A DNA stretch of 64,000 nt from Lysobacteraceae bacterium SCN 69-320 (GTDB lineage: Bacteria > Pseudomonadota > Gammaproteobacteria > Xanthomonadales > Rhodanobacteraceae): NCBI GenBank assembly GCA_001725155.1, contig MEFP01000012.1:186001-250000 (forward strand), read 5' to 3'. Below, in pieces: positions 1,696-64,000 of this stretch; the first letter of the stretch is position 1, and each line of letters starts with the position of its first letter. The notes beneath the pieces were generated by a model. That model saw only the letters and a list, made by a program, of their open reading frames with translations. It was not told the origin of the DNA and ran no database searches. A program made the translations under genes and the position numbers.

Positions 1696-2642
<947 letters not shown>

Positions 2643-2646
<4 letters not shown>

Positions 2647-6740: not shown

Positions 6741-6798
6741 TCGGACCACGCCGTTTCCGCCGCCCGCGGCGAGCGCTCGCGCCGGCAGAGCGGCGGCC

Positions 6799-10142: not shown

Positions 10143-10253
10143 CCGCCGCTCCCGCCGCCGCACCGCGCAGGTCCGTGCAATCGGCGCTGCCGCAGGGCTG
10201 CGCCTGGCTCCGGCCCGCGAACCGCTCAAGCCATTGAACACAGGAGAGTGGAC

Positions 10254-11928: not shown

Positions 11929-11982
11929 TGGATTCAGCGAGAGGCTGTCCGGCAGCCCCCTCGCTCATGCACCGGCGACGGA

Positions 11983-12744: not shown

Positions 12745-12767
12745 CGGCGGGGTGACGGATTCATGGC

Positions 12768-12786
12768 TGCACTGTCAATTAGTGCA
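12768..12786. promoter_or_regulatory. Dyad TGCACT-N7-AGTGCA, possible LuxR operator
   Basis: A perfect 6-bp inverted repeat with a 7-bp AT-rich spacer (GTCAATT) starts 24 bases upstream of the LuxR start codon, in an otherwise GC-rich intergenic region. Size and symmetry suit a LuxR-type dimer site, although the sequence is not the canonical lux box. Autoregulation is inferred from position only. Confidence 0.4.
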
Positions 12787-12873
12787 ATCGTGCCCCAATG
12801 CTGACCGGGTGTTTCGTTACCGTGTGCGCAGTCCGGCAGGCTCGAGCCGCGCGACCCGAGCCTGCCGGGCACG

Positions 12874-13560: not shown

Positions 13561-13637
13561 GGAAACCTCGGGTTCAGGGACGCGCCGGAGCGGCGCGGCA
13601 CTCGTTATAGGCAGCCCGGGCCTGCCCTGGTCGCTCC

Positions 13638-13697
13638 CCCTGTCGGTTCTGACAGGGTGCAGCCTGACGCTCCGGCGCCGGCCTGGGCCGGCGCCGG
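13638..13697. terminator. Two tandem hairpins after the large secreted protein gene
   Basis: Downstream of the stop at 13705 (minus strand) are two perfect inverted repeats: an 11-bp stem CCGGCGCCGGC at 13672-13682 paired with 13687-13697 around a 4-base loop, and a 7-bp stem CCCTGTC at 13638-13644 paired with 13651-13657. There is no T-run, so they may act as transcript-stabilising or Rho-assisted ends rather than as a classic intrinsic terminator. Confidence 0.5.
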
Positions 13698-13704
13698 TTG
13701 CGGA

Positions 13705-16700
13705 TCATTCAAACCCGTTGCCGAAGATGCCTACCGTGTCCGGTCCGTCGGTGGCCGTGTTGTTGGCCGTCTGCGGGTCGCCGAAGGCGCCGGAGAGTTC
13801 CACGGTTGCCGTCGCCGTGACCGGCTGTTCCGGTGTCGGCGGTACCGTCGCGCTGACCAGGAAGTTCACCCGTGACCCACCGGGCAGGGCCACTGTGCCG
13901 TCGAGGTTGCCGTTGCCCGACGCGCCGGGGCAGGTCGCGCCGCCCTGTGGGCTGCAGACCCAGCCGATACCGGTCAGATGGGCCGGCAAGGCCAGGCGCA
14001 CGCGCGCGCCGGTCACCGCGGTACTCGTGCCGTTGTCCACTTCGACCAGCCAGCCGACGGTACTGCCGCCGTTGATGTAGCGCGTCCCGTTGCTGTTGCT
14101 GATGGCGAGGTCGGCGAGGATGCGCGGCGTCACCTCGAGACTGTTGGATACGCTGCCCGCGCCGACCTTGTTGTTCGCCACGACACTGCAGGCGTACGCC
14201 GTGCCGGCGGTGAGGCCGGTGACGGTGAGCGGCGAGGCGGTGCCGTTTGCCGTATGCGTGCCGGGCGTGCAGCTCGCGGCATAACCGGTGATCGCGCTGC
14301 CGCCGTTGTCGCCGGGAGCGGCGAACGTGAGCACGGCGCCGTTGCCGTTCGGCGTGCCGACGGCGCTCGCGAGCTGCGGCGCGCCGGGCACGGCGGCCGG
14401 CGTCACAGGGGACGATGCCGAGGACGCCGCGCCCATGCCGACGTCGTTGGCCGCCTTCACGGTGCAGGTCACCGGCGTACCGTTCGGGAGGCCGGTCACG
14501 GCGATCGGCGACGCGGTGCCGGTCTGGCTCATGCTGCCGCAGGTCGCCGTATAGCCCGTGACAGCGCTGCCGCCGTTGTTCACCGGCGCGACGAAGGCGA
14601 CGCTGACCTGCGCGTTGCCGCGCGTGGCGACCACACCCGTCGGCGCGTCGGGCACGGTGGCCGGCGTCACCGTATTGGAACTGGCCGAGGCAGGGCCTTC
14701 GCCGACATCGTTGGCTGCCTTCACGGTGCAGCTCACCGGCGTGCCATTGGGCAGACCGCTCACGACGACCGGCGACGCGGGACCGCTGTGGGTCGCGCTG
14801 CCGCAGGTCGCGCTGTAGCCGGTGATGGCGGCGCCGCCGTTGTTCGCCGGCGCGACGAAAGCGACGCTGACCTGCGCGTTGCCGCGCGTGGCGACGATGC
14901 CGGTCGGCGCGTCGGGCAGCGTGGCCGGCGTCACGCTGGCCGACGGTGCCGACGGCGCGCTGTTGCCGCGCGCGTTGGCGGCGGTGACGGTGCAGGTCAC
15001 CGGCGTACCGTTGGCAAGTCCGGCGACCACGAGCGGCGAACCCGGACCGTTCTGGCTGTGGCCGCCGCAGGTGGCGGTATAGCCGGTAATGGCGCTGCCG
15101 CCGTTGCCGGCCGGCGCAGCGAAGGCCACGCTGACCTGGCCGTTGCCGCGCGTGGCGACCACGCCGGTGGGCGGATCGGGCACCGTGGACGGCGTGACGG
15201 GCCCGGCCGCTGCGAGCTGGCTTTGTCCGACGTCGTTCACGGCGGCGACGCTGCAGTAATAGGCGGTGCCGTTCGCCAGGCCGGCCACCACGATCGGCGA
15301 GGTCGTGCCGCTCGCGCTGAAGGTGAGGCAGCGCGCGGTATAGCCGATGATGGCCGAACCGCCGTCGCTGGTCGGCGCATCGAACGCGACGCTGATCGAC
15401 GCATTGCCCGGCGTCAGCGCGAGATTGCGCGGCTGGCCGGGACGCGCCGCGGGCGTGACGCTCGCGGACGTCGCCGACCACGGGCCGTAGCCGACCGCAT
15501 TGTGTGCGCGCACGCGGCAGGTCACCGCCACACCGTTGGCGAGGCCGCCGACGGTGATCGACGTCGTCGTGTCGGTTGCCGTCTTGCTGCCGCATTCGGC
15601 CGTATAGCTGTCGATCGGGCTGGTGCCCGGATCGCCCGGCGGCAGAAAGTCGACGGTGACCTGGCCGCCGCCCCGCACCACGCTGCTGATGAACGGTTCG
15701 GTCGGCGCCGCGGGCGCGATCACCGCATGGTTCGTCGAGGTCGCGTTGGAGGCTGCGTAGGTGCCGCTGCCGCCGTAGCTCGCGGTGAGCTGTTGGGTGC
15801 CGGCCGTCGGCGAGGTCAGCGCGCAACTGCCGCTGGCACTGTTGCCGCTGCCGGCGAGCGTCGCGTTGCAGATGACCGAGCCGTCGCCGATCGTGACGGT
15901 GCCGGTGATGTCGGCGCTGCCGCTGGCGCGCGTGACGCTCGCCGTCACGGTATACGGCTGGCCCGGCTGCGAAGGATCCGGCGTGTGCGACGTGATCGCG
16001 GTCGACGTCGCGATCAGCGGCACGCTCGGGACGGCCGAGCGGAACACGTCGGAATAGTTCAGCACGTCGCCGGGCACGAGATTGTTCGCCGTGCTGCTGA
16101 AGACCATGCGGCCGTCGTTGGCCACCGCATGCGGCCCGGCCGCGACCGGCGCATTCGACGGCGCTCCGGTGGGGGCGACGGAAACGAGGTGCAGATAGCC
16201 GGTCTGCAGGTTCTTCACGTAGGCCAGCGCCTTGCCCGCGGCGACGCCGTCGGCGAGGCCGGCCTGCGCGCAGACGAAGCCGGCCCACTGGGCGTTGCCG
16301 CTGATCGCCGCGTTCGTGCAGTCGCCGCCGCTGCCCGGCTGGCCCGTCGTGCTCGTGTTGAGGCGGGTGACGGTGCCGGTGGTCAGGTCCTTCAGGAACA
16401 CGTCGATGCGGCCGTTGTCGTCGCCGGCCACGAGGTTGTTCGCGGCCGAGAGGAAGGTGACGTAGCGTCCGTCGCTGCTGATCGACGGCTCGCTGCTGGC
16501 GCCGTTGCCCTGCGTGCCGTCGGCCGCGCTGCTGGCGCGCACGAGGCTGCCGTCGCCGAGCTGCTTGACGTAGATGTCGGCCACGCCGTTCGTGTCGTCG
16601 GGCGCGAAGTTGGTCGCGAGGCTGGCGAAGGCCACGCGCGTGCCGTCGTCGCTGATCATCGACTGCGTGCTGTCGCCGTTGCCCGGCACGCCGGCGGCCG

Positions 16701-48061: not shown

Positions 48062-51000
48062 TCAAGGCTTCCTGCAGGTCGAGGAGTTTGCGCCGGAAGT
48101 CGCGCCATCAGGCGTCTTCGCCGTGCATGCCTGCGCGACGAGATCGGGCGCGGGTTCCGACGGGTCGCCCGCGTAGACGCCGAGATCCCACGACGCGTAG
48201 TCGATGGCCGTCAGCGCCAGCAACTGGTTCGTGGCCGGGGCAAATCGCCATTGCGTACTGGATGGCATGAACGATTGCGCGGCCGCGCCGGGCATGAAGA
48301 TCTTTTCCATACAGAGGGGCTGGTACCCGTGTTTGCGGCGTACGACCTGAACCGACGAGGCGCGCTCGTAACCGAACACGAGGTCGCCGGGCACGCCGTC
48401 GATGAAGGTCGGCGGCTTGTCGTCCTGCGGCTCGCCGCCGGCCGGCTCCCAGAGGCGGCATTCGTGTCGCGCCCTCAAGATTTCGTCGTAGGGAATCTTC
48501 TCGTGGACGCCCGTGCGGGCGTCGATCACGACGAACGCCTTCGGCAGCGCCGCCTTGTTTTCGCCGTAGCTGTTGACCATGCCGCCGCCGGGCTTGCCGA
48601 TCAGGCCGAATACGATCAGGTCGCCGTTCTTGCTTTCCGCGTAAGTCACGCCGCAATCGTGGTCGTCGCGGCATTCGCGCAGCGGAGGCACGCGCATGTA
48701 GTAATCTTTCCACGTTTCTACATTGCCTACAGGCCCGGCATCGTGCGACGGCCGCAGCGAACGGGATTGCAGCGATTCGATGCGCGGCGCGGACGATGCG
48801 CACGCGCCCGCTCCCGTCGACGGAATCTGCGCTTCGAGCCAGAGCCCTCCCGCCTGGATCTGCTGGGTGCCGCCCGGCTGCGTGGCGATAACGGAGGATG
48901 TCGGCGGATATGCGTTGGTCTCGAACTCCACGCCGGGCACGAAATCCACTCGGGGCCCGGGCTCCTCGCCCACGCTGGCGGGATTGACCAGCAGGGTGCG
49001 CACCGTCTGCCGGCGATTGACTCTGTTCATCAGCACGATCGCGTCGCCGGCGAGCGTCATGCTGAGCAGCGCGTCCGGGTCATCGGCGCTGGGGGGAAAC
49101 TTGAAAAGCTGGTCGATGCCGAGCGAGCTGGCGACGGCGCCATCGCGCACCAGGGCGACGTGCGACTTCATGGCCGCGAGGCCGGCGGCGGGTGGCCGCC
49201 ACAGGATCAGCGTCGCATTCTCGAACGGCTCTGAGACGTTCGCCAGCACGAGGGTATTCGATCCGTACGACTCGAACCGCGGGATTTCGACCGGCTGCCG
49301 TCCCGGACGAACGATGGTGCCCGAGTCCGGCCGCAGCGACACGAAGCCCGGCGGCGACACGAGCAGCGTACGGCGATTGAGGACGACGCGGTCGCTCGAA
49401 TCGACCGAGTCCAGGGGTATCGAATGCGTCGGCAGCGCTGCGTGCAGTTTTTCCAGCGTCGCCCGGGCCGTGTCGCTCAGCGCGCGGTCGAACGGCCCCA
49501 GTTCGCCGGCGAGCATCACCGCGCGCATGGCCGATTCGACGGCCGAATCCGCCGCGTCGGGATAATTGCTGGTCGAGTCCGACAGCAGTTTCGTGACGGC
49601 GGCGCGCTTGTCGGCCCAGGTCTTGCTGACGTTGACGAACGTGATGGACGCGCCGACGACGACAGCAGCCCCGGCGATGGCCGTGCCGATGCGAAAGCGG
49701 CGCCGGGACACTTCCGCGTTGCGTTCGGCCAGCGCATCCGCGATCCGGATCTGCGCCAGCCCGAGTCCCACGATGTCGTGGCCCAGGCTGCACATCGGCT
49801 CGTCGCCGCTGCGGTCGAGCGTCGGTATCGAGATGCGGCGCAACACCAGCACCTGCGGCTGCGACAGATGCCTGAACATGTGATCGGGAGGCGCCGACGT
49901 GCGCTCCTTTTTCGCGGCGTCGCGAAACGCGCTGAGGCTCATCACGTCGGTATGCACGCGGCCGTCGCCCTCGTAGCGCACCAGCCCGTAGAGCACCCGG
50001 CGCCAGCGCCGTTCCTCGTCTTCGAGGCGCGCGGCAGGAATCCCGGCATCGGCGGCGCCGCGGCGCAGCGATTTCGAGATGTGCCGCATCATGCACAGCT
50101 TCAGGCCCTTGGGCTTGTACAGCGCATTGTCGATCGTCTTGGGCGCGGGCCGATGGCGAACGCTTTCGTACAGATCCTGGCAGACGATCTGCATGATCGG
50201 CAGGATCGCGCCGCCCGAGCGATTCGTTTCGAACAGGTCGCCGACGATCCTGTCGACCACGCCATCGTCGAAATCAAAGCCGTATTTTCCATAAGGCGAG
50301 CCGATGCCCGGGATCTCGACCTTCGATGTCGGCAGCAGCATCGCCTCGGTCACTTCCTCGGGCCGCAGTTCCGGCAACAAGTACACCTTGAAGTCCGCGT
50401 GCACGTCGTTGTCGAGCTGCGCGAGTCCGATGAACTCGCCGGAATGGTCCTTGCGCAAGGCCAGGATCAGCTTCCCGCTCGAACCCAGCGCGTTGAACAG
50501 CTTGAGGAACTCGAAGAAGCGGTCGCGCGCCGGCGAATCGGGCGGGCTCAGCGTCAGCACTTCTTCGACCTGGTCCAGCACGATCACGAGCGTCGACGGC
50601 AGCGCGTCGCCGATCAGGTTGAACGCCTCCATCAACCGGCGCGGATCCGCGCAGATCCGTACGAATTCGTTGCACGTCGAGGCGCCGAGCCGCGCCTCCG
50701 CGAGGTCGTACTCGCACGGACCGCGCGCCGTCTTCGCGATCACCGGTTGCGACAGCCATCCGTACAGGCTTTCCGCGAGGCTCGACAGCGGATCCGGACC
50801 GGAGCGGACGAAGACGGGTCGATCGGGCTGGCCGGGCGCGTCGCCCGGTTCGCGCAGGAACAGGAAGCCGAGCCGGCTCGCCTCGAGCATCGGAATGAGG
50901 CCGGCCCGCAAGAATGACGACTTGCCGCAACCAGTCTGGCCGTGCAGCAGCAGGATGCGCGTGCGCACCTGCGTGACCAGTTGGGCACAGGCGGTGACGT

Positions 51001-51091
51001 GGCCGGCGCGGCCGGTGAACAGCAGCGCATCCTCGGCGTGATACTGCGCGAGGCCGCGATACGGCTGGTCAGGGTAGGTGAGGCCGGTCAT
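48062..51091 (-). CDS. STAND NTPase (nSTAND1-like) with membrane anchor and C-terminal sensor-like region
   Basis: 1009 residues. It starts with YRGLAQYHAEDALLFTGR, the typical entry of nSTAND1 NTPases, followed by Walker A GQTGCGKS (51-58) and Walker B LVIVLDQVEE (168-177). A winged-helix-like region (to about 450) precedes a single transmembrane helix (about 468-487, TAIAGAAVVVGASITFVNV). The C-terminal 500 residues are beta-rich and probably a propeller-like sensor facing outside; it lacks clean WD repeats. STAND proteins oligomerise on ligand binding and activate a partner. It overlaps the CHAT gene by ATGA, so the pair is probably one signalling unit. Confidence 0.88.
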   Translation of the reverse strand: MTGLTYPDQPYRGLAQYHAEDALLFTGRAGHVTACAQLVTQVRTRILLLHGQTGCGKSSFLRAGLIPMLEASRLGFLFLREPGDAPGQPDRPVFVRSGPDPLSSLAESLYGWLSQPVIAKTARGPCEYDLAEARLGASTCNEFVRICADPRRLMEAFNLIGDALPSTLVIVLDQVEEVLTLSPPDSPARDRFFEFLKLFNALGSSGKLILALRKDHSGEFIGLAQLDNDVHADFKVYLLPELRPEEVTEAMLLPTSKVEIPGIGSPYGKYGFDFDDGVVDRIVGDLFETNRSGGAILPIMQIVCQDLYESVRHRPAPKTIDNALYKPKGLKLCMMRHISKSLRRGAADAGIPAARLEDEERRWRRVLYGLVRYEGDGRVHTDVMSLSAFRDAAKKERTSAPPDHMFRHLSQPQVLVLRRISIPTLDRSGDEPMCSLGHDIVGLGLAQIRIADALAERNAEVSRRRFRIGTAIAGAAVVVGASITFVNVSKTWADKRAAVTKLLSDSTSNYPDAADSAVESAMRAVMLAGELGPFDRALSDTARATLEKLHAALPTHSIPLDSVDSSDRVVLNRRTLLVSPPGFVSLRPDSGTIVRPGRQPVEIPRFESYGSNTLVLANVSEPFENATLILWRPPAAGLAAMKSHVALVRDGAVASSLGIDQLFKFPPSADDPDALLSMTLAGDAIVLMNRVNRRQTVRTLLVNPASVGEEPGPRVDFVPGVEFETNAYPPTSSVIATQPGGTQQIQAGGLWLEAQIPSTGAGACASSAPRIESLQSRSLRPSHDAGPVGNVETWKDYYMRVPPLRECRDDHDCGVTYAESKNGDLIVFGLIGKPGGGMVNSYGENKAALPKAFVVIDARTGVHEKIPYDEILRARHECRLWEPAGGEPQDDKPPTFIDGVPGDLVFGYERASSVQVVRRKHGYQPLCMEKIFMPGAAAQSFMPSSTQWRFAPATNQLLALTAIDYASWDLGVYAGDPSEPAPDLVAQACTAKTPDGATSGANSSTCRKP

Positions 51092-52221
51092 GCCGGCGTT
51101 CCCTGCGCGGCCGGCGTGCCGATCTCAGGCACGATCTTGTACTTCGGCTGTGCGTAGCAGCTGTAGAGCAAGCTCAACGGCCACATGGACTCGTCGCGGC
51201 GCAGGTGATGCATGGTCTGTCCGATCGTCTTGCCTTCGTCGAACAGCGCCGTCAGAAACTGCCGAGAGAACTCGATGGCGTCGTCCTTCGGCACGATCGA
51301 TTCCGTGGAGATCAGGCCGAACAGGCCCTCCCGGTTGGCGACATCGGCGAAACTGTAGTCGCCGTCGCCGAACGCGCCTTCGCAGCCGTTGATGAAAAGG
51401 AGGCCGCACCACTGTCCCGGCATACGACGTCTGCCGCCGGTGAGTTCGTCCATCAGGATCTTGAAATCGGTCATCGATACTTTCGCGCCGTAGCCGAGAT
51501 CGAGTACGCCGTCGTGGTGATGACCGATGTAGTGGAAGATCGTGTCGCCCGGCTCGATGTTCCGGAGCGCCTCACGGCAAAGCTCGTAGGTGAGCTTGAT
51601 GCCGAGCGGACGCCCTAGCAGGTTGCCCAGACGCGCATGCGCCTCGTCGGCGTAGTCGCGATGCAGCAGCGACAGCAGGCGACACTGCTTCGCCGGTCGC
51701 GCCAGCGCGTCGGAGGGATTGACGCCGTCGAACACGGCAGCGAGTTCGTACTTGAGCCCCCAGAAATTGCCGAAGGACGTCGATCGCACGTCCGGCTGAA
51801 GCCCGGGCAGATCATCGGCTTCGAAGACGAGCCCCCACGGCACATGCATGCTCGGGTCCGCGACGACGCTGAGGTCGCATTCGGCGGACTCGGTGCCGTC
51901 TTCCTGTTTTTTTTGCTTTTGCTTTTCGTACGCCTGGCGCATCCAGTCCTGGACATCGTAGGCCGCGTTACGGTTGCTCTTCGCGTCGAACAGCGCGTAG
52001 TACAGGTGGAACCCGGCCGTCGTGAGTTCGTGCAGGATCAACGGCAGCTCTTCGCGCTGCTTCGACGCCGCCCATCGCGTGAGCCGCGCGAGTCCCGTGC
52101 GCACTTCGCCGGCCGCGCGCTGGAGGTTGTCGAGAGAAACGTAGTACTTGGCCCAAAGGCCCTCGTCGCCCCAGCGCAGACAGACCTCGTTTCCCCGCGG
52201 ATCTCCGATTTCAAGCCACAT
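51088..52221 (-). CDS. CHAT-domain caspase-like protease
   Basis: 377 residues from ATG 52221. The CHAT catalytic dyad is visible: His in FHYIGHHHDG (about H234) and Cys in LLFINGCEGA (C280), with the usual spacing. The N-terminal 120 residues are helical with a charged Lys/Gln stretch, and DPSMHVPWGLVFE is typical of the pre-catalytic strands. CHAT proteases (caspase clan) act with STAND, TPR or CRISPR partners in prokaryotic conflict systems, cleaving a specific protein and often causing cell death. Here the overlap with a STAND gene suggests NTPase-gated activation. Confidence 0.9.
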   Translation of the reverse strand: MWLEIGDPRGNEVCLRWGDEGLWAKYYVSLDNLQRAAGEVRTGLARLTRWAASKQREELPLILHELTTAGFHLYYALFDAKSNRNAAYDVQDWMRQAYEKQKQKKQEDGTESAECDLSVVADPSMHVPWGLVFEADDLPGLQPDVRSTSFGNFWGLKYELAAVFDGVNPSDALARPAKQCRLLSLLHRDYADEAHARLGNLLGRPLGIKLTYELCREALRNIEPGDTIFHYIGHHHDGVLDLGYGAKVSMTDFKILMDELTGGRRRMPGQWCGLLFINGCEGAFGDGDYSFADVANREGLFGLISTESIVPKDDAIEFSRQFLTALFDEGKTIGQTMHHLRRDESMWPLSLLYSCYAQPKYKIVPEIGTPAAQGTPA

Positions 52222-52272
52222 CTGCTGTCGCCGCCGCCGTTGCCGCCGGCGCCCCCTGCCGAGAAACGTCGA

Positions 52273-52482
52273 CTAGCCGAGCACGCCCGGTATCTGCCCC
52301 CACTGCGTCATGCAGTAACACGGCTGTCCCGGCACGCCGGGATACGGCATCCAGCACCAGAACTGCGGGGTGAAGCAGATGGTTCCCGGCTGATGCGGTG
52401 GTACCTGCGCGAGCGCTGCCGTCGGCAACATCGCGGCGGCCGCGAGGGCAACGCCCAGGACCAGGTGATGCAGGCTTTTCAT
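52273..52482 (-). CDS. Small secreted Cys/Trp/Pro-rich peptide, first gene of CHAT-STAND operon
   Basis: 69 residues from ATG 52482 (AGGAGG five to six bases upstream). A clear signal peptide (LVLGVALAAAAMLPTAALA) is followed by a mature part of about 45 residues rich in Pro, Cys and Trp (CFTPQFWCWMPYPGVPGQPC, then YCMTQWGQIPG). Four Cys could form disulfides in the periplasm. It lies 51 bases upstream of the CHAT gene on the same strand. No known family recognised. It may be an exported ligand for the extracytoplasmic part of the STAND protein. Confidence 0.7.
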   Translation of the reverse strand: MKSLHHLVLGVALAAAAMLPTAALAQVPPHQPGTICFTPQFWCWMPYPGVPGQPCYCMTQWGQIPGVLG

Positions 52483-53010
52483 GGCGTCCTCCTGACCGGC
52501 GAAAGAGACACGCGGCGTGGTCGAACAGGTAATTACGCACACGGCGCGCTTTGCTTACCTGTGTCGCGTCGGCAGGCGTCCTCTCACCCTGGGCGCGGAC
52601 GCGTGACCGCTTCATCACAAACGGTGACAAAGGCGAGCGTGCGGAACGCGCGCTCCAGTCCGCGTTGGCGGAGTGGGAGCTATTCCCGGAGAAGGAGGCT
52701 CGGTGGTTCCGATAGGCTCACATCTCACGCTGCCTGCTCAGCACTCTGAAGCGTTGTTCCGAACACTTTTTGCCCCACGCATCGCCGTTTTCTGCACCTG
52801 TTCGCATCAACACTTCATTGGTTTCTTGGAAGCGTTGATCCGAAACCAGCGTCAAGAATACCTGTTTCTCCGAACAGCGCGCGGGCCGGACTCAACAGTA
52901 TATGTGTGAACGAATGCCGGCCACGACATTAAAGTCGCGCGTCAGATTCTTGACTCACGACAACGGCGGTTCAGACTCGCTGGCAGGCAGCAGTCGATGG
53001 GGCTCCACCC
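52483..53010. other. Intergenic: CHAT operon promoter region and left end of Tn7-like element
   Basis: 528 bases between the divergent Cys-rich peptide gene and tnsA. The right half contains repeated GAAGCGTTG(T/A)TCCGAA motifs and is more AT-rich than its surroundings; the left half presumably holds the operon promoter. The exact transposon boundary was not resolved. Confidence 0.5.
52748..52876. repeat. Putative TnsB-binding repeats at the transposon left end
   Basis: Two 16-base copies, GAAGCGTTGTTCCGAA (52748-52763) and GAAGCGTTGATCCGAA (52829-52844), differ at one base and are in direct orientation 81 bases apart. A partial third, TGTTTCTCCGAACA, lies at 52863-52876. Arrays of about 20-bp direct repeats next to tnsA are typical Tn7-family left ends. 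A TGT that could be the terminus occurs at 52755. Confidence 0.65.
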
Positions 53011-53679
53011 ATGACAGCGCGTTCAAAGCAGCAGAAGCCGTCAGTTCGCGCCTCTGTCAAGAAGCGCGGGCGGGCTGCCTACAACATCTGGTCGGTGTGG
53101 AGTCCCAAGACCCAGCGTCGATGGGTCTTGAAAAGTGACCTTTGCGAGGAGCACTGGCTCCTACTCGAGGCCGATCCGGACGTCGCGTCATTTGAACTTG
53201 GGCCGGGCTTGGCCGGCCGTCATCCGGCAGCGGACAGCGAATTGTCCAAGATCGATGCCGTGGTTCGGTTGCACTCCGGCCGGGTTGAATGGCGGTCGGT
53301 CAAATGCCGAACCGAAATGCGCGCCGACGATCCGCCGGCCGGCTCGGTAGAGGGCACCGTAGACGCGATGTTCGCTCGGTGCGTCATTACCGACGAGCAC
53401 TTGTCGAAACACGCCCTCCTGATCGAAAACTTCCGGCGCGTCGTTGCGGTTCAAGCGCGCACGGCCGACTTTCCTCCCGCCGACGAGCAGAACCGCGTGG
53501 CGGCGCTGCTACGACATCAAGGCCGCGTGGTACTCGGCGATCTCGTCGAAGGTCTCGATTCGCCCCACACGGCCCTGATGCTATCGGGCGCGTTTGCGTT
53601 GCTGACGAGCGGCTTTGCGCGGTCCGATCTCGATGTCGCCCGGCTGTCCACGCGCACGCAGCTTTGGTGTCGCGGATGA
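53011..53679 (+). CDS. tnsA: TnsA-like transposase endonuclease subunit
   Basis: 222 residues from ATG 53011. It reads as a divergent TnsA: helix CEEHWLLLEADPDVASFELG with a candidate catalytic Glu (46 or 47), then KIDAVVRLHSG with Asp82 and VEWRSVK with Lys98. Spacing between Asp and Lys matches the TnsA catalytic core, but the residue two before the Lys is Ser96, where Tn7 TnsA has Gln. A basic N-terminus (RASVKKRGRAAY) may bind DNA. TnsA cuts the 5' ends during cut-and-paste transposition with TnsB. It overlaps tnsB by ATGA. Confidence 0.8.
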   Translation: MTARSKQQKPSVRASVKKRGRAAYNIWSVWSPKTQRRWVLKSDLCEEHWLLLEADPDVASFELGPGLAGRHPAADSELSKIDAVVRLHSGRVEWRSVKCRTEMRADDPPAGSVEGTVDAMFARCVITDEHLSKHALLIENFRRVVAVQARTADFPPADEQNRVAALLRHQGRVVLGDLVEGLDSPHTALMLSGAFALLTSGFARSDLDVARLSTRTQLWCRG

Positions 53680-55592
53680 GCGCCAACGCGCGCGTGCGGT
53701 GCGACACGTCTGGCTGGAGTGAGCTCAGCCTGACGCACCTGGATGATGGCACGCGCCAAAAGATTCTCACCCGCCAAGCCGCGGTTCGCGACTATTTCCA
53801 CTACGTGCCACTACGCGCCATTGCGAGCCAGTACGGCCTGGTTCCTTCGGAAGTGCTGCGCCTGGCGCAGCGGTGCACCCGTGCCGACGAACTCGGCGAT
53901 TGCTACGAGTGGCGCGGCATTCTGCTGCGGGAAGTCTTGCGTCCGTACCGGCGTCGGTCGCCGATCAACGACGGTCACGCGCAACGGGGCCGGGGCCTCA
54001 GCTGCGCGTTCGGTGATCTGCTGTTGCGTAAGCCCGAGATCGCTGCGGGGTTGCGCAAGGAACTGGATCGTTCGGGGGGTCGAAATGACGTGCACGAATT
54101 CAAATACAGCCTCAAAAGTCTATTTCGTCACTTCCGCACCTTGTGCGCCAAAGCCGGCGTGCGCCACGACGAATACCCGCTGATGACGAAGCTGCAGGGA
54201 TATCGATCGCTCGGTGAGTTTGCCCGGCGTGAATTGCAGCGGAATTTCGAGCACGCAGTCAAAGTCCGCTACGGGGAGGTGGCCGCCTCGCACATGAAGG
54301 TCGGTACCGGGCACGTCTCGCGCCGAACGACCGCACGTCCTTTCGATGCGCTGCAGATGGACGGCTTCGATCTCCCCATGATTGGGTGCGTTCTGGTCCC
54401 TTCCCGCAAGGGAGTGCGGGAGGTGGCCGCCGATCGGCTGTGGCTGTGTCCCGTTGTTGACGTGGAGCTCAAAGCGGTTCTCGGCTACAGCGCTTCGGTG
54501 GGGCCAGCGTTGACCGACGGTGATGCGCTGGATGCGGTTGAGAATGTGCTCACCCCGTGGGAGCCTCGAGACGTGTCGGCTTCGGGCCTCACATACCCTG
54601 TCTATGCGGGATTCCCGAGCGGCCTATCGCCGCTTTTCGCGCAGTGCGGTTGTTCGACGCTGTTCATCGACAACGCCGAGATCCACCTCGGCAAGGCCGT
54701 CCAGGACCGTATTGCCCGACGGCTCGGCTGCTCCATCAACCTGGGCCCGGTGCGCCGCTGGGATCGGCGAGCGCTCATCGAGCGGATTGGCGGCATGCTG
54801 AAACGGGAAGGGTTCGCTCGCGTGCCGTCATCGATGGGGTCAGGGCCCAACGATCCGCATCGGAACGATCCGGTCGGCATGGCCTGCCGCAAGCGCATCT
54901 TGATCGACCACCTGTTCGACTTGGTGGATGTGGAAATCGCGACCCTCAACGGACTGGAGACGGAAGGGCTCTACAACATCACGCCGCTGCAGTATGCCCG
55001 GCAATTTCTGGAGGACCCCACCATACTCTGGCCCGTGTTGCCGCCGCTCCCCAAAGGCATTGCGGACCTCGACACCGATGTAAAGCACCTGCCGGTCGCG
55101 GGCAGCGCCTCGGGCGGCCGGCGGCCGTATGTGCAGATCGACCGGGTGACGTATACGAACGACGTCATCGCCGCCAGTCCGGAGCTGTACGGTACTGAAG
55201 TTTGGGTCCACATCCGGCGCAGTGACCTGCGCACGGTCAAGGTATTCGCCGACAACGGCCTGTCGCTGGGTACGGCGCGAGCGATGGGCGGGTGGGACCA
55301 GACAGCGCACTCCCTGAAAACCCGCCGCCTCTACAACTCCCTGAAGGACAACCGGCTCCTCAAGGTAACGGCGGACACCGATCCGGTGATCCAGCTGGTC
55401 GGACACCTGTCCGACGAAGTGCGTCGCGACGCCGATCGCGCGAAGCCGAAGGTCTCGGCAGCGGCGTCCGCCTTGGCGCGCGTGATGCGGGAATCCGGCC
55501 TTCCGGCCGCCGGGCCGAGCGTCCATCCCACCCACCGGCCATTGACCTTGCGCGAAGAACTGGCTCGCAAACGGGGCATCCGCCATGACTAG
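53676..55592 (+). CDS. tnsB: TnsB-like DDE transposase
   Basis: 638 residues from ATG 53676, overlapping the tnsA stop; the frame is open upstream but those codons lie within tnsA. The DDE core is visible: ALQMDGFDL (Asp about 229), LFIDNAEIH (Asp about 332) and RALIERIGGMLKRE (Glu about 368), as in TnsB/TniA/Mu-type integrases. N-terminal helix-turn-helix-like regions (LRAIASQYGLVPSEVLRLA) suit end binding, and the C-terminus is basic and disordered, where the TnsC contact lies in relatives. It catalyses 3'-end cleavage and strand transfer. Confidence 0.93.
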   Translation: MSANARVRCDTSGWSELSLTHLDDGTRQKILTRQAAVRDYFHYVPLRAIASQYGLVPSEVLRLAQRCTRADELGDCYEWRGILLREVLRPYRRRSPINDGHAQRGRGLSCAFGDLLLRKPEIAAGLRKELDRSGGRNDVHEFKYSLKSLFRHFRTLCAKAGVRHDEYPLMTKLQGYRSLGEFARRELQRNFEHAVKVRYGEVAASHMKVGTGHVSRRTTARPFDALQMDGFDLPMIGCVLVPSRKGVREVAADRLWLCPVVDVELKAVLGYSASVGPALTDGDALDAVENVLTPWEPRDVSASGLTYPVYAGFPSGLSPLFAQCGCSTLFIDNAEIHLGKAVQDRIARRLGCSINLGPVRRWDRRALIERIGGMLKREGFARVPSSMGSGPNDPHRNDPVGMACRKRILIDHLFDLVDVEIATLNGLETEGLYNITPLQYARQFLEDPTILWPVLPPLPKGIADLDTDVKHLPVAGSASGGRRPYVQIDRVTYTNDVIAASPELYGTEVWVHIRRSDLRTVKVFADNGLSLGTARAMGGWDQTAHSLKTRRLYNSLKDNRLLKVTADTDPVIQLVGHLSDEVRRDADRAKPKVSAAASALARVMRESGLPAAGPSVHPTHRPLTLREELARKRGIRHD

Positions 55593-57955: not shown

Positions 57956-59464
57956 ATGCGCCGACCTTCAGACGCCTTCGATCCGCTCACGGCCTTTGCC
58001 AAGGACCTTGCCGCCTATCGCGAGGCCTCGCGACGGGCGATCGCGTCGACGTGGCGCGCCTTCTCGAAGACGTGCGTCGCGGGCGGACTGGCCCCGTGGC
58101 CCCTGACGGACGCGAACATTGAATGGGTGGTGCGCCGATGGATCGCCGGTGGCGCCACGGGAACGACGTTGCAGGTTCGCCAATGGGCGCTGCGACGGCT
58201 GCACGCGTTCGAGCGTGCAAATGTCGTTTTGTCGGCGTTGTCCACCGCGGCGTGGGCGCGCTGGATCTGGAGCTGCGTACCCACGCGCAAAAGCGGCGGA
58301 CCGCGGCCGCGATTGACGGTGTTCGAAACCCATCGATTGATCGACGCCCTCGAGCGCGATGCCGACTACCACTGGTTGCGGATGCTGCTCGCGGTCATCG
58401 ACCGAACGGGATCGTCGTTGCGCACGCTGCTGCAGGTGCGGCAGCGCGATCTGGCGGACGCGGTGCTGACGTTGCACCCTCACCGCGGCACCTACGCGGT
58501 GCCCCTGGAGCAGGACGAGGTCCATGCCCTGAAGGACCTGGGTGTGTCATCGGCCGCCGATGCCTTCCTGTTCAGTGGCGATGGCGGCGCGACACCGTTG
58601 TCGAGCCATCGGGTCAACCGGGACTTGGGCCGCTATGCCGAGGCGGTACTCGGCCGCCCGGTGGCGATGCGCGAGGTCCAGGAAGCCGCGATCCGGTTTC
58701 TGCTGCAGCTGGGCGTCGCCACCCACGCCCTGTCGCAGTGCACGGGACTTCGTCCGCGCACGTTGCTGCGCGTGGCGCGCTTGCGCGCCCCGCTGGACGA
58801 CCGGCCGCTGATCATCCAGTACGGCATTCCCGTTCGCGCCCACCATCCGGCGTTCGCGGAACTGTGGCGCGTGATGCAGCGCACCGAGGCGTCCGTCTCG
58901 GGTCTGCGCGATCGTGCCATTCTGAGCCTGGTGTATTTTGACTTTGCCACGCCCGACATGGTCAGCAGGATGGATCGCAGCGACGTCCATGCCGACGGCT
59001 CGTATTCCCTGCCACGAGAGTCTGATCTGACGGTCACGCTGGCCGAACCCCACGTCGCGCAGGCCCTGGGCGCGTGGGTCGCGCTCCGGGGCGACGAGCC
59101 CGGCCCGCTGTTTGTCGCCGAGGACGGGGCTACTGCGCGAGGGCTACAACCGGAGGAGGTGGATGGGCTGGTTCGTGAGCGGTCCCGCGGTCTGCGCCGG
59201 CCGTTCACGGCCGCGACGTTGCGACTGGGCGGAATCGCTCGCGCCGCCAACGCCGGCCTGCCGCTGGCTCGACTGGCCGACCAGGCGGACCTGCGCTACG
59301 AGGAGCTCGCCCACGTCCTGGCGCTGCATCAACGAACCGAGACCGCGGCGCGGGTTCGCCAACAGATCGATGCCCTGCGCGACGCGCGCGGGTCGCCCGC
59401 CACCTTCCGCGACCTGTGCACCGGGCCGCTGGTGCGGTGCTATATCCACGCGGCGAGCCCCTGA
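57956..59464 (+). CDS. tnsF: TnsF-like target selector with two degenerate tyrosine-recombinase-like domains
   Basis: 502 residues. Two tandem segments resemble Xer/phage-integrase catalytic domains. The first has LRMLLAVIDRTGSSLRTLLQ and, later, AAIRFLLQLGVATHALSQCT. The second has LRDRAILSLVYFDFATPDMV and ATLRLGGIARAANAGLPLAR. In active recombinases these positions carry a TGLR Arg, H-x-L-R-H and a Tyr near a GH motif; here the second-domain Arg I, both His and the Tyr are missing. Tn6022-like elements encode TnsF, an inactivated tyrosine recombinase that selects the target (comM in the known case). It follows tniQ with nine bases between. Confidence 0.85.
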   Translation: MRRPSDAFDPLTAFAKDLAAYREASRRAIASTWRAFSKTCVAGGLAPWPLTDANIEWVVRRWIAGGATGTTLQVRQWALRRLHAFERANVVLSALSTAAWARWIWSCVPTRKSGGPRPRLTVFETHRLIDALERDADYHWLRMLLAVIDRTGSSLRTLLQVRQRDLADAVLTLHPHRGTYAVPLEQDEVHALKDLGVSSAADAFLFSGDGGATPLSSHRVNRDLGRYAEAVLGRPVAMREVQEAAIRFLLQLGVATHALSQCTGLRPRTLLRVARLRAPLDDRPLIIQYGIPVRAHHPAFAELWRVMQRTEASVSGLRDRAILSLVYFDFATPDMVSRMDRSDVHADGSYSLPRESDLTVTLAEPHVAQALGAWVALRGDEPGPLFVAEDGATARGLQPEEVDGLVRERSRGLRRPFTAATLRLGGIARAANAGLPLARLADQADLRYEELAHVLALHQRTETAARVRQQIDALRDARGSPATFRDLCTGPLVRCYIHAASP

Positions 59465-59623: not shown

Positions 59624-59971
59624 TCAGCGCGGTTTGCGCTGGAGTGCCGTGAGCGCGGCAATCAGATCGGCGACCTGTCGGTCGGAGCAGGTGTGCGCCA
59701 GGGCACTGAGCCGCTCCAGCCGACGACGGGATGCCGGCACGCGCCCGGCCGGTCCTGAGTACGCCACGCGAAGTAACGTGCACAGGGCCTTGGCGGAGGC
59801 CGAGCGGGGGGTGAACTGACCGGCCAATACCCGGCTGACTTGCGCTTGCGTGATCGACAGCGATTGCGCGAGCGCTTCCTGCGTCAACCCTCGCCGCTTC
59901 ATCGCCGCCGTCAGGCGCATTCCCAGGTCCCGGGCCCAGTCCTCGCGGCACTTGATCATAGTATACTTCAT
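59624..59971 (-). CDS. XRE-family transcriptional regulator
   Basis: 115 residues from ATG 59971; earlier in-frame codons would run through the promoter. The helix-turn-helix lies at about residues 18-60 (MRLTAAMKRRGLTQEALAQS, then ITQAQVSRVLAGQ), followed by a helical tail. It is divergent from the methyltransferase operon with only 23 bases between start codons, the arrangement of controller proteins in restriction-modification and toxin-antitoxin loci. It probably represses or tunes both promoters by binding the GTATAC repeats between them. Confidence 0.88.
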   Translation of the reverse strand: MKYTMIKCREDWARDLGMRLTAAMKRRGLTQEALAQSLSITQAQVSRVLAGQFTPRSASAKALCTLLRVAYSGPAGRVPASRRRLERLSALAHTCSDRQVADLIAALTALQRKPR

Positions 59972-60006
59972 ACGTATATTATGGACGTATACGCATGCAG
60001 GGGCAA
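59952..60006. promoter_or_regulatory. Overlapping divergent promoters with GTATAC operator repeats
   Basis: Plus strand: TTGATC (59952-59957), 17-base spacer, TATATT (59975-59980), start near 59987, just ahead of the methyltransferase ATG (very short leader). Minus strand: TTGCCC (60006-60001), 17-base spacer, CATAAT (59983-59978), leading to the XRE gene. GTATAC occurs at 59961-59966 and 59987-59992, with the palindrome ATACGTAT at 59970-59977 between them, so a bound dimer would overlap both promoters. This AT-rich block contrasts with its surroundings. Confidence 0.6.
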
Positions 60007-61320
60007 TCCTCACCCATGGACCTTGAGCCGATCGAGGGTGTTTCGGGGCAGCTGCTGGAATGGCACCCCGATCATGTGCCGCTGACCACGGGACAGGCCG
60101 GACGGCAGCTGCCGTTCCAGCGCTGGTTTCCGTTCAAGGAAGCGTTTGCGCCCCAATTTGTCGCCGATGTGCTGGCGCGTGACGGCCGCGGCACGGGCAC
60201 GTTGCTGGACCCGTTCGGTGGCTCGGGCACGAGTGCGCTGACGGCACAACACCTGGGCTGGAATGCCCATACGATCGAGGTCAATCCGTTCCTGGCCGAC
60301 TTGATCCAAGCCAAGCTTCACGCGTACGACGTGGCGCAGTTGCGGCGAAACTGGAGCACGATCCTGGCGCGCGTAGGGCGGGCGAGGCCGTCGCTGTCGC
60401 GCCTCTATGCACAGGCGCCGCGCACGCTGGTCGAGCCGGGCGAAGCGGATCGGTGGGTGTTTTCAGCGGCGGTCCTGCGCCGCGTCGCGGCCTACCGGCA
60501 GACGATCGAGGCCTTGCCTGACGCGGCAATGCGCCGCTTCTTCCGGGTTCAACTGGGAGCGATCCTCGTTCCGCTCAGTCACGTCGTGATCAGCGGGAAG
60601 GGGCGTCGGTACCGCCGCGGCTGGCAACAGCTGAACTGGACCGGCGCGGACGTCGACGCGCGACTCGCGAGGGCCGTGGACAGCGCGATCGCGGATGTCG
60701 CCGCGGCGCGCCCTCACGCCGGATCGCGCTGCACCGTCGCCCGAGGCGATGCGCGCGCGCTGCTGGCCGACGCCCCGGTCGCCGATTGCGCCCTGTTTTC
60801 GCCGCCGTATCCCAACAGTTTCGACTACACCGATATCTACAATCTGGAATTGTGGGTTTTGGGATACTTGAACAGCAAGGACGACAATCGGCGTCTGCGC
60901 CATGCGACGGTGCAATCGCACGTCCAGCTCATTCGGACGGCGTCACCGCCGCCCGATTCGCCGCAGCTCACGCGCTGCCTTCAGCGCCTGGCGCGCGTGC
61001 GCGACCAGCTCTGGAGTCCGCATATCCCGGCGATGGTCGGTTCGTACTTCCACGATCTCGCCCACGTGCTGCACCACGTGGCGTGGAAGGTGACGCCCGG
61101 TGGCCGTGTGGTCGTGGTGGTCGGTGACAGCCGCTACGAGGACGTCTATGTCGACGTGGCGGCGATTCTGCAGGAGCTCGCGCCGGCCTGTGGCTTACGC
61201 GTCACGCAGTGCGAAGCGATGCGCTCGATGCGGGTGAGCCCGCAACAAGGCGGGCAACCCGGTCTGACGGAAACGGCCATCACGTTTACCGTCCAGCGCC
61301 GCTCGACCGCCGCGCCATGA
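59995..61320 (+). CDS. Adenine-type DNA methyltransferase
   Basis: 441 residues from ATG 59995 (ATG 60016 is an alternative). Motif I LLDPFGGSGTSA (70-81) binds S-adenosylmethionine and motif IV SPPYPNSFDYTDIY (about 268-281) is the S/D/N-PPY catalytic motif of amino methyltransferases. Motif I precedes IV although its DPFxGSGT form is usual in beta-class enzymes where the order is reversed, so this is a separate subfamily. It probably methylates adenine, possibly N4-cytosine. No restriction endonuclease lies next to it; instead it overlaps (ATGA) an ABC ATPase gene, suggesting self-marking for that system. Confidence 0.9.
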   Translation: MQGQSSPMDLEPIEGVSGQLLEWHPDHVPLTTGQAGRQLPFQRWFPFKEAFAPQFVADVLARDGRGTGTLLDPFGGSGTSALTAQHLGWNAHTIEVNPFLADLIQAKLHAYDVAQLRRNWSTILARVGRARPSLSRLYAQAPRTLVEPGEADRWVFSAAVLRRVAAYRQTIEALPDAAMRRFFRVQLGAILVPLSHVVISGKGRRYRRGWQQLNWTGADVDARLARAVDSAIADVAAARPHAGSRCTVARGDARALLADAPVADCALFSPPYPNSFDYTDIYNLELWVLGYLNSKDDNRRLRHATVQSHVQLIRTASPPPDSPQLTRCLQRLARVRDQLWSPHIPAMVGSYFHDLAHVLHHVAWKVTPGGRVVVVVGDSRYEDVYVDVAAILQELAPACGLRVTQCEAMRSMRVSPQQGGQPGLTETAITFTVQRRSTAAP

Positions 61321-63323
61321 CGATGCGCGCCGCAATTCAGCTGCCCACGCTCGAGCGCCTGCGCGTTCACGGCTACGCGCTCTATCCCGGCCCGCGGCAG
61401 CAGGGGATCGATCTCACGTTCCCCGCCGGCGTCACCGTGCTGGCGGGCATCAACGGGATCGGCAAGACGACGTTGCTGCAACTGCTGCTGCGCATGATCC
61501 TGGGTCCCCTCAACCCGTCCAAGGCGGCCAGCCGCGATCCCGGGCGTGTCAGCGACCGCAAGCTCGTGAGCGCGTCGAGCTTTCCGTACTTCGCCTCACG
61601 CGTTCCGCCACCGCTCTCCGACGAGGCGGTCGCCACCCTGGACTTTCGGATCGGGACGCGCGCGTTTGTCGTCCGGCGTGCGATGGGCAGCATGGCCCTG
61701 CGCGAGGTCACGATCGATGGAAAACGGCGGCGGGACCTGACCGACCATGGCCTGCTCGACGCCATGGCAGCCGTCGCCGGCATCGGCAGCGGGTACGACT
61801 TCTACATGGTCGTGCGGTATCTGCAGTTTTTCACCGAGGAGCGACTGCCCGTGCTGTGGTCCTCCAGCACGCAGTTCGAAGTGTTCAAGATGCTGTTTGT
61901 CGATCCGTCGGTGGCCACCGAGCTGTCGGCGCTCTACACCGAGGTGCAGCGCGTCGACTCCAACTACCGCAACCGCAAAAATCAGCTCACCTTGCGCAAG
62001 GACGCGCAGGACGTTCTGGCCGCACTGCGGCCGACCTCGGATACCGTCACGCCGCAACAGGTGGCCGATAAAGCCGCGGAGCTCAACACGGCGCGCGTCG
62101 CGGCCCAGAAGGCTCGCGAGGTCCTGGAGAAGCTCGCGGCCCAACGCGATGCCGCGCGCCACGCGGTCGCGACGCAGGAATATGCCGTCGACGACTACCG
62201 GCGCGCGCTGGCGCAATCGGATGCGGCCTACATCAGCCACGCCCTGCCGGGGCTGGAGGACAAGCTCCAGTTCCTGATGCAGGGACTGGGCAGTGGCGTG
62301 GGCTGCTTCGTCTGCGGCACGCCGGGCCGGAAACAACACCATGCGATCAGCAAGACCCTGCGCTCGGGCCATTGCTTCGTCTGCCACAGCAAGCTGCCGG
62401 CGGGGCGGGCGAACGTGGCGTCCATCAAGGTGGCCGACGTGCGCAAGGACGAAACCGCGCTCGCGGAAGCGGTCGCGATCTTGAACGCCCGCGAAGCGAC
62501 GCTGGCGCAACGCGAGCAAGCGGTCGTTGATCAGCAGGGCCGTCTTCGCCAAGTGCTCACCCAAGTGCAGCAGCGCAGCGAAGAGCACCTCTTCCTCGCC
62601 GCGCAAGTACCCGATCCTGTCGCCTCCCCCCTGCAGGATGAGATCACCCGCGAAGAGCTGGAACTGGAGCAGCTCGACACCAAGCGCAAGGCGCTGACCG
62701 AAAATTACCGCAGCGCGGTCGGCCGGGCACAGACGTCCATCGAGGCCATCCGCGAGGCCTTGGCCGAACGGATCGCCGCCTATGCGGAACGGTTCCTGCA
62801 GGAAAGCGTCAGCGTCCGCTTTGAACGCAACAGCCCGTTTTCCCTGGCCACGGGCGTATCCAAGGTCAACATCCCGACGTTTCGCGTGGCGATGACCTCG
62901 GGCACGCATGCGACCCAGCAGGTGCGCACGAGCGAGACCAGCGTGTCGGAATCCCAAAAGGAATTTCTGGACTTGGCGTTTCGACTCGCCGTGCTGGACA
63001 TGGTGACCCACGACGGGGCGATGACCCTCGTAGTCGAGACGCCGGAAGCGAGCCTGGACACGTGGTTCATGCAGCGCGCCGCCGATTTGATGCGCGATTT
63101 TGCCAGCCGCGGATCGAGCGGACAGCGACGCGTCATTGCGACGTCCAATCTCAACGGCACGTCGATGATCGGCCATTTGCTGGGGCGCCCGGCAGGGTCC
63201 CGGCGCAAACCCAGCGGGCATCTGATCAACCTGATGGAGCTGACCGCGCAGCCGGGCGTACTCAAGGACAAAACGGCGCAGGCACTATTCGAGCACGAAG
63301 TAGGGCAGTACACCGATGCCTAA
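61317..63323 (+). CDS. Rad50/SMC-like ABC ATPase with CxxC-CxxC hook
   Basis: 668 residues from ATG 61317, overlapping the methyltransferase stop. Walker A GINGIGKT (44-51) sits after an N-terminal strand as in RecF/Rad50-type ATPases. Two long coiled coils (about 215-310 and 380-480) flank CFVCGTPG (about 329-332) and HCFVCHSKL (about 356-359), a possible zinc-binding hinge. The C-terminal half has a signature-like SESQKEFLDLAF (about 544) and Walker B LVVETPEASLD (about 570), with ETPE in place of DEP. This build occurs in ABC-ATPase conflict systems; it probably senses or tethers DNA and gates an effector. Confidence 0.9.
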   Translation: MTMRAAIQLPTLERLRVHGYALYPGPRQQGIDLTFPAGVTVLAGINGIGKTTLLQLLLRMILGPLNPSKAASRDPGRVSDRKLVSASSFPYFASRVPPPLSDEAVATLDFRIGTRAFVVRRAMGSMALREVTIDGKRRRDLTDHGLLDAMAAVAGIGSGYDFYMVVRYLQFFTEERLPVLWSSSTQFEVFKMLFVDPSVATELSALYTEVQRVDSNYRNRKNQLTLRKDAQDVLAALRPTSDTVTPQQVADKAAELNTARVAAQKAREVLEKLAAQRDAARHAVATQEYAVDDYRRALAQSDAAYISHALPGLEDKLQFLMQGLGSGVGCFVCGTPGRKQHHAISKTLRSGHCFVCHSKLPAGRANVASIKVADVRKDETALAEAVAILNAREATLAQREQAVVDQQGRLRQVLTQVQQRSEEHLFLAAQVPDPVASPLQDEITREELELEQLDTKRKALTENYRSAVGRAQTSIEAIREALAERIAAYAERFLQESVSVRFERNSPFSLATGVSKVNIPTFRVAMTSGTHATQQVRTSETSVSESQKEFLDLAFRLAVLDMVTHDGAMTLVVETPEASLDTWFMQRAADLMRDFASRGSSGQRRVIATSNLNGTSMIGHLLGRPAGSRRKPSGHLINLMELTAQPGVLKDKTAQALFEHEVGQYTDA

Positions 63324-63966
63324 CGCGCGTTTCGTTCGCAAAGAAGACTACGGGCACCTGCATTTCGCGCGGTGGTTGCTCTTGCTGTTCGCTGCCTGTG
63401 ACGCCGCCGGCCTGGGGCCCGTCTCTCGCCGTCGGCTTCATACCTTGCTGTTCGTGTCCTTCGCGTCTTCGCGCTTCTACGACATTGCGCCCCTGCGCTA
63501 CCGCGCCCGTCGCACCGAACACGGGCCCTACTACCGCGCGGCGCACTTTACGCTGGGCGCGCTCATTCTGAGCGGCCTGATCGACGTAAGTCAGTTCACG
63601 CCGTATCCGGCGCGCAACGAGCTGCAGTTTGAGGGCGACCTGCGCCTGCGGCGGCGCGGTCTGTCCATCGCCCGCCGATTGCGCCAGACCAGCACGGGCG
63701 AACGGCTGTACCAGTTCCTCCTGGAACTGTGCTTATCGGCAGCTCGCACCGAGACCTCCCAACTCGACCAGGCCCTGCTGCAGGATTTGACCTACCAGAC
63801 CGCCACCGCACGTGGCGAATCGACCATTGGCATGGACGAGGAGCAGACCCCGACCGTGGTGGGCCTTCGCACGATCGATCGCTACCTGAACGAGCTCGCG
63901 CTGTCGCACCGGCGCGATGCGCTGGCGGCCTACCAGCGGCTTCTCGTGCATCGGATGGCTGCCTGA
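63316..63966 (+). CDS. Middle-component-like protein of an ABC three-component system
   Basis: 216 residues, overlapping the ATPase gene by eight bases. The N-terminal half (RWLLLLFAACDAAGLGPVSR, RLHTLLFVSF, then GPYYRAAHFTLGALILSGLI) matches the general pattern of small middle components of ABC-3C defence systems: an LH.L.F..A helix, a P-rich strand, a GPYY/F turn and an L..GLI helix. The second half is helical and ends in TIDRYLNELALSHRRDALAA. Assignment is by pattern, not by a recognised profile. The next gene overlaps its stop (TGATG). Confidence 0.6.
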   Translation: MPNARFVRKEDYGHLHFARWLLLLFAACDAAGLGPVSRRRLHTLLFVSFASSRFYDIAPLRYRARRTEHGPYYRAAHFTLGALILSGLIDVSQFTPYPARNELQFEGDLRLRRRGLSIARRLRQTSTGERLYQFLLELCLSAARTETSQLDQALLQDLTYQTATARGESTIGMDEEQTPTVVGLRTIDRYLNELALSHRRDALAAYQRLLVHRMAA

Positions 63967-64000
63967 TGGCGGGTTCGCTCGAACCGGCGGAATTGCAGCG
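63966..64000 (+). CDS. Start of next operon gene (cut by window edge)
   Basis: ATG 63966 overlaps the preceding stop (TGATG) and the frame (MAGSLEPAELQR) runs off the window. In an ABC-3C layout this position would hold the effector or another core component. Confidence 0.5.
   Translation, partial: MAGSLEPAELQ

Follow-up and report, generated by a model that had tools for sequence, protein, structure and literature searches.

Gene content and layout of the operon

The last part of a 64,000-nucleotide stretch of contig MEFP01000012.1 from Lysobacteraceae bacterium SCN 69-320 (the whole stretch is referred to as the window) carries a divergent XRE gene followed by genes for a DNA amino-methyltransferase, a Rad50/SMC-like ABC ATPase, a 216-residue protein predicted to be winged-helix-like and a PD-(D/E)xK nuclease. 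The original prediction described a tightly overlapping operon, a divergent XRE gene and an ATPase with two CxxC motifs and an ETPE Walker B; these observations are confirmed, and the interpretation that accompanied them is upheld in part. The methyltransferase and ATPase genes overlap at ATGA (the ATPase start codon lies at 61317), the ATPase gene overlaps the 216-residue open reading frame (ORF) by 8 bp, and TGATG at 63964-63968 joins this ORF to the start of the nuclease ORF. With rather better than even confidence, this gene set is read here as a mobile, ATP-dependent, restriction-modification-like defence system, on the basis of gene content, gene order, catalytic motifs, predicted folds and conserved co-occurrence.

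59624-59971, minus strand: XRE/Cro-type regulator, possible controller (Pfam HTH_31 5.2e-9, HTH_3 9.2e-8)
59952-60006, no strand assigned: divergent promoter-like sites and inverted repeats GTATAC / ATACGTATA, candidate XRE operator
60016-61320, plus strand: DNA amino-methyltransferase, 434 residues (alternative start 59995)
61317-63323, plus strand: Rad50/SMC-like ABC ATPase, 668 residues, two CxxC pairs in the coiled-coil region
63316-63966, plus strand: small winged-helix-like protein (predicted fold), 216 residues, in the "middle component" position
63966-64000, plus strand: first 35 bases of the PD-(D/E)xK nuclease gene (367 residues; the gene runs to 65069, L003:5966-7069)

The earlier statement that no restriction endonuclease is in view holds inside the cut window, whereas extension of the contig, the check proposed with it, reveals a PD-(D/E)xK nuclease as the next, operon-overlapping gene. 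This ORF (63966-65069 on contig C12 of the same genome) starts 35 bases before the window end and directly continues the operon, and the reading of the operon as lacking a nuclease is rejected. The protein has a restriction-enzyme-type PD-(D/E)xK fold with intact catalytic residues, and in the model of the orthologue from locus L007 this domain is C-terminal, at about residues 170-346 of 372. A PDB sequence search with the nuclease returned only a ribosomal protein (E 0.65). A further genome of the class has a 707-residue open frame that includes a nuclease-like match (L080, G387:C4:709920-710423); this may be a fused relative of the nuclease.

The methyltransferase carries S-adenosylmethionine (SAM) and catalytic motifs, as in restriction-modification systems, with motif I (DPFGGSGT) first and SPPY approximately 195 residues later. 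It matches the PADLOC model MTase_II (7.5e-41) and falls below the Pfam cut-off for N6_N4_Mtase (8.8e-4); among 27 relatives, SPPY is present in every one and motif I fits the search pattern in 22. The "adenine" specificity given in the original prediction is not accepted as established, its sole basis being the motif IV SPPY, which occurs in N4-cytosine as well as N6-adenine enzymes.

The window ATPase contains the Walker A sequence GINGIGKTT, two CFVC motifs, the signature VSESQKEF and the Walker B sequence ETPEASLD; it scores just below the Pfam cut-offs for AAA_23 (2.7e-5) and AAA_21 (1.9e-5). Walker A is found in 27/27 relatives, the SESQ signature pattern in 24/27, at least two CxxC pairs in 26/27 and the Walker B form D/E-T/A-P-E-x-S-L-D in 23/27, the other four lying outside the search pattern. 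By PDB profile search the ATPase matches SMC chains best; Rad50 ranks lower, together with numerous other ABC and coiled-coil proteins. The ATPases match the PADLOC models LmuB, mad3, PbeC and DndD, and belong broadly with the coiled-coil ABC ATPases.

The 216-residue protein has no match in Pfam, NCBIfam or PADLOC, a PDB sequence search with it found nothing, and a search of 274 genomes of the class returned its own genome as the sole match. Its best AlphaFold2 model has a predicted local distance difference test score (pLDDT) of 88.4 and structure matches to winged-helix proteins, and a winged-helix-like fold is predicted. Homologues occupy the same slot in related loci and fall into two clades (A5 and A6), which a profile comparison links weakly (probability 58, E 9.8e-5); the slot in L028, L029 and L031 is matched by neither the A5 nor the A6 profile. 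A tblastn search of plasmids found two records with the ATPase and one with the small protein.

The divergent XRE gene starts at an ATG at 59971 or at a longer GTG start at 60013. Between the divergent starts, two promoter-like sites are seen, on both strands, against 0.1 expected in shuffled sequences, and they overlap inverted repeats at 59961-59992 and 59966-60000; because of this overlap, the XRE protein could control both directions.

Conserved linkage and exchange of the methyltransferase

The ATPase search found 30 loci in addition to that of the window: 16 among the genome contigs, nine on viral contigs, three in 398 genomes of the window's phylum and two on plasmids. The neighbourhood survey suggested in the original prediction bears out the association, with the methyltransferase present in 28/30 of these loci and the intact-site nuclease genetically linked in 27/30. 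Both genes are missing from L019 and L027, where the contig ends inside the ATPase, and the third locus lacking the nuclease is L006, in which the ATPase is frameshifted and no nuclease match is found. L024 and L030 score alike and are probably near-identical. The named records among the genome contigs include Diaphorobacter, Pseudomonas cerasi, Phaeovibrio, Dyella, Roseobacter, Sphingopyxis and Rhabdobacter, and the metagenome-assembled records include Comamonadaceae, Nocardioidaceae, WOR-3, Kiritimatiellaeota, Chloroflexi, Saprospiraceae and one Methanosarcinaceae archaeon. The gene set is beyond chance because it recurs in such far-related genomes.

The reciprocal searches of the 398 phylum genomes lead to the same loci. 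The ATPase profile (threshold E 1e-20) finds four genomes, the methyltransferase profile finds the same four at 2.7e-147 or better before dropping to 1.1e-52 to 1.1e-43 for six others, and the nuclease profile finds five, of which the best four are again the same and the fifth scores 2.1e-13. In the methyltransferase search of the viral contigs, the nuclease or ATPase adjoins 7/8 loci at E < 1e-100 and 0/9 weaker loci, where five of the eight strong loci share contigs with the ATPase search and four of the nine weak ones lie near a contig end, with their surroundings partly unseen.

Wherever all three occur, the order of ATPase, small-protein slot and nuclease is constant, and it is the methyltransferase that moves. 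It comes first in the window, L005, L015, L018, L024 and L030, last in L011, L013, L014, L016, L017, L020-L023, L026, L031 and L036, and on the other strand in L006-L010, L012, L025, L028, L029 and L053-L055, a placement expected if the methyltransferase must act independently.

Two of these loci have further content. L005, a Burkholderia stagnalis replicon, contains a second, divergent module (1776-5590, minus strand), placed back to back with the full system; immediately following the system are an alpha/beta hydrolase and a VMAP-C protein with a caspase domain (12202-15355), a further conflict cassette. L006, from Azospirillum, looks decayed (2368-15087), with the ATPase in two frames, the small protein, a KAP NTPase, the methyltransferase on the other strand and no recognisable nuclease.

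Trees of 27 loci were compared through patristic distances with 2000 permutations. The correlation is strongest between ATPase and nuclease (r 0.90) and lower for ATPase and methyltransferase (0.49) and for nuclease and methyltransferase (0.38), and 0/2000 permutations reach any of the three values. The ATPase and nuclease trees are thus congruent. A methyltransferase of the window type is paired with the other module type in L015, L018 and L030, the reverse is seen in L023, and the sister modules of L005 and L007 have methyltransferases from different branches. Taken together, the congruence and the exchange fit one fixed restriction complex with a replaceable, constantly needed methyltransferase, and the exchange would be easiest to understand if the methylation mark were common to the family.

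The same exchange may be read differently, in that the methyltransferase would supply targeting, with methylation or a methyltransferase-DNA complex recruiting or licensing the ATPase and nuclease rather than protecting DNA from them. Such a role is compatible with the swapping of methyltransferases among modules in which ATPase and nuclease stay paired, and with the methyltransferase showing the highest conservation when the three subunits are compared over 14 loci (mean column identities: methyltransferase 0.43, ATPase 0.27, nuclease 0.19). The target would then be the host's own methylated DNA, and the prophage and restriction-type relatives described next fit protection better, which makes a targeting role quite improbable.

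The out-of-clade relatives of the methyltransferase support, from their gene neighbourhoods, a putative restriction role. In L041, the neighbour of an outer relative is a ResIII helicase whose Mrr-type domain scores slightly under the cut-off (Mrr_cat_2 2e-4), and in L045 and L046 one precedes an ORF of 340-345 residues, for which no Pfam match is found in L045. The L041 region (3956-10061) as a whole, with two methyltransferases next to the 947-residue ResIII/Mrr-type helicase, is an ordinary ATP-dependent restriction setting. Within the clade, a solo methyltransferase without an ATPase (L035:5956-7218, E 7e-131) lies at a prophage end recognised by head decoration and endolysin genes. If functional, this enzyme could protect its phage from the system, and a solo methyltransferase on a prophage would fit such self-protection; it is regarded as a lead only. 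It adjoins an 849-residue P-loop protein and two more ORFs, possibly a counter-defence or another defence cassette.

Mobile setting and proposed function

The original prediction placed the operon on a Tn7-like transposon. Tn7-like genes do adjoin it, with weak scores, and the search for transposon ends yielded a single candidate. Upstream of the operon lie a TnsC-like ORF (Pfam AAA_22 7.6e-11; TniB 0.0015, below the cut-off) and a TniQ-like ORF (Pfam TniQ 0.0011, below the cut-off; PADLOC TniQ 7.7e-6), and the ORFs at 53011-53679 and 53289-55592 appear TnsA- and TnsB-like by eye, without Pfam matches. A repeat like GAAGCGTTGTTCCGAACA occurs at 52747-52876 in four copies, three strong and one weak; these sites, from which the consensus GAAGYGTTGWTCCGAA was derived, are candidate TnsB sites of one end. 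No second cluster of this kind is found up to coordinate 137000, and no notable inverted repeat is found between 52200-53011 and 65070-77000. Among the related loci, L005 has TniQ near the system (1.1e-13), L006 has the complete set of TniQ, TnsA, TnsB and TniB near it, and in L007 a Mu-type transposase lies nearby together with an AAA partner.

Two neighbouring features in the window are recorded here. A 502-residue ORF between TniQ and the operon (57956-59464) is recombinase-like by eye, matches Xre-like-HTH weakly (0.0013) and is a possible target selector of the transposon. On the minus strand at 48062-52221, a 1009-residue nSTAND1 NTPase (PF20703, 5.8e-36) stands beside a 377-residue protein with CHAT/caspase-like motifs by eye and no Pfam match; the pair is possibly another conflict system adjoining the Tn7-like genes.

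Restriction-modification is the commonest defence cargo of Tn7-like transposons in the survey of PMC8649781, and the setting is therefore not unusual. These transposition genes, together with the nine ATPase loci on contigs filed as viral, are also what would be expected if the operon were cargo for the stability or self-protection of mobile elements, acting by post-segregational killing in the manner of restriction-modification rather than primarily against phages. For the other loci, the flanking regions were inspected by eye and in part, and restriction-modification systems commonly do both, so that the two functions are not exclusive; as the primary function, element stability is given a very slim chance.

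In the favoured reading, that of a restriction-modification-like defence system, the methyltransferase would mark the host's own DNA, so that methylation would separate self from non-self. The Rad50/SMC-like ATPase, as a dimer, would form with the small winged-helix-like protein a complex that loads on DNA and inspects it. Upon meeting unmarked DNA, the ATPase complex would activate the PD-(D/E)xK nuclease, which would take DNA as its substrate and cut the unmarked molecule, with an anti-phage or anti-plasmid effect. Expression may be regulated by the divergent XRE protein; many restriction-modification systems have controller proteins that govern their expression.

Several observations weigh against this reading. 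In the D/E-T/A-P-E form, another residue stands at the Walker B position usually held by the catalytic glutamate, which makes strong ATP hydrolysis uncertain. The nuclease model is middling (predicted template modelling score, pTM, 0.62), with a single PDB match at E < 0.001, and no stand-alone target-recognition domain was recognised among the restriction components. The swapping of methyltransferases among modules is odd for a pair that needs the same site, a difficulty that would ease if the site were common or if the methyltransferase supplied the specificity, and the second module of L005 has an ATPase, small protein and nuclease without a methyltransferase of its own. The conserved XRE controller was weakened on checking. 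A search with a profile seeded with five regulators chosen by eye detects, next to the methyltransferase, a short divergent helix-turn-helix (HTH)-like ORF in no more than 8/32 loci, five of them the seeds, one a 51-residue fragment and one at E 0.0067. Among five divergent regulators scanned with Pfam, only those of the window and L010 pass the cut-off, those of L054 and L055 match weakly and that of L018 has no HTH match. The XRE protein is thus a likely, though not constant, component of the system.

Slightly less than an even chance is given to the broader claim that these bacterial and archaeal loci form a class of their own within ATP-dependent restriction-modification, with a Rad50/SMC-type dimer as the engine that inspects DNA, a winged-helix partner and exchangeable methyltransferases that imply a shared or conserved mark. 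SMC-type machines such as Lamassu and Wadjet can sense foreign DNA, according to PMC10586767. Coupling such a machine to a methyltransferase would provide a direct mark of self against non-self, would link SMC-based immunity with classical restriction-modification and would make it possible to study how methylation is read by a Rad50-like complex. The gene set is rare (4/398 phylum genomes) yet spans distant phyla, and defence-island annotation therefore probably misses it.

Comparison with known systems

No published set of methyltransferase, Rad50-like ATPase, winged-helix protein and PD-(D/E)xK nuclease was found in a literature search that left out the 2020 ABC-ATPase survey, preprints and supplements; that survey reportedly defined ABC-3C. 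The gene set looks like a phage-defence type for which no description was found in the literature searched.

Type I and III restriction-modification systems likewise combine a methyltransferase, an ATP-driven DNA-handling protein and a nuclease, and an outer relative of the methyltransferase lies beside a helicase-nuclease in L041. They differ in the motor, which here is a Rad50/SMC-like ABC ATPase, not a superfamily 2 (SF2) helicase. The BREX-related (BR) systems are also restriction-modification-like, with a methyltransferase, an ATPase and a nuclease, but use DUF499/BrxC-type ATPases and Swi2/Snf2 helicases, as described in PMC12839542. PglZ, BrxC and their partners are absent from the PADLOC matches listed for the four core proteins, the flanking genes having been partly scanned.

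The Lamassu/ABC-3C systems (LmuA-LmuC-LmuB, DdmABC) share an SMC/Rad50-like ATPase of approximately 650 residues with a Zn-type cysteine motif, a small middle gene and a nuclease effector. The operon might accordingly be an abortive-infection system of this kind, in which the ATPase would sense unusual DNA such as ends or hairpins, the small protein would couple it to the nuclease, host and phage DNA would both be destroyed, and the methyltransferase would be a partial host shield or an accessory. In the search against defence-system models proposed originally, the LmuB model PDLC03859 matches 16/17 ATPases but also 14/14 control genomes; in the window's own genome its best match is another ORF, the window ATPase not being among the best five listed. 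The match is not diagnostic because the model is positive in every control genome, and a Lamassu assignment from it is rejected.

The small protein and nuclease have no specific model match: PADLOC gives none for the former, and for 18 nuclease members only one, to the CARF-PDDEXK model at 0.016, with LmuA matching 0/18. The one LmuC-type protein compared, a single sequence, does not align with the small-protein profile. The available part of PMC10586767 describes a glutamate-to-glutamine change in the Lamassu Walker B and an N-terminal effector domain in LmuA, and names no methyltransferase for Lamassu; here Walker B is D/E-T/A-P-E in 23/27 ATPases, the nuclease domain is C-terminal and the methyltransferase is nearly constant. 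An abortive-infection system of the Lamassu type is considered unlikely.

The nearest published idea is that of the CxC ABC-ATPase/PbeABCD and Dnd-linked systems of PMC10853773, which share a Rad50-like ATPase with a Zn-hook, sometimes beside cytosine methylases, and for which DNA scanning plus restriction has been proposed. When the small protein and the nuclease are scanned with PADLOC, neither DndE nor an HKD nuclease-SF2 helicase is found, the outer genes having been partly scanned. Those systems, as described there, contain a DndE made up of two ribbon-helix-helix domains, together with an HKD nuclease-SF2 helicase and a small protein that is disordered, whereas the operon described here pairs its ATPase with a winged-helix-like protein (by prediction) and a PD-(D/E)xK nuclease, without a helicase.

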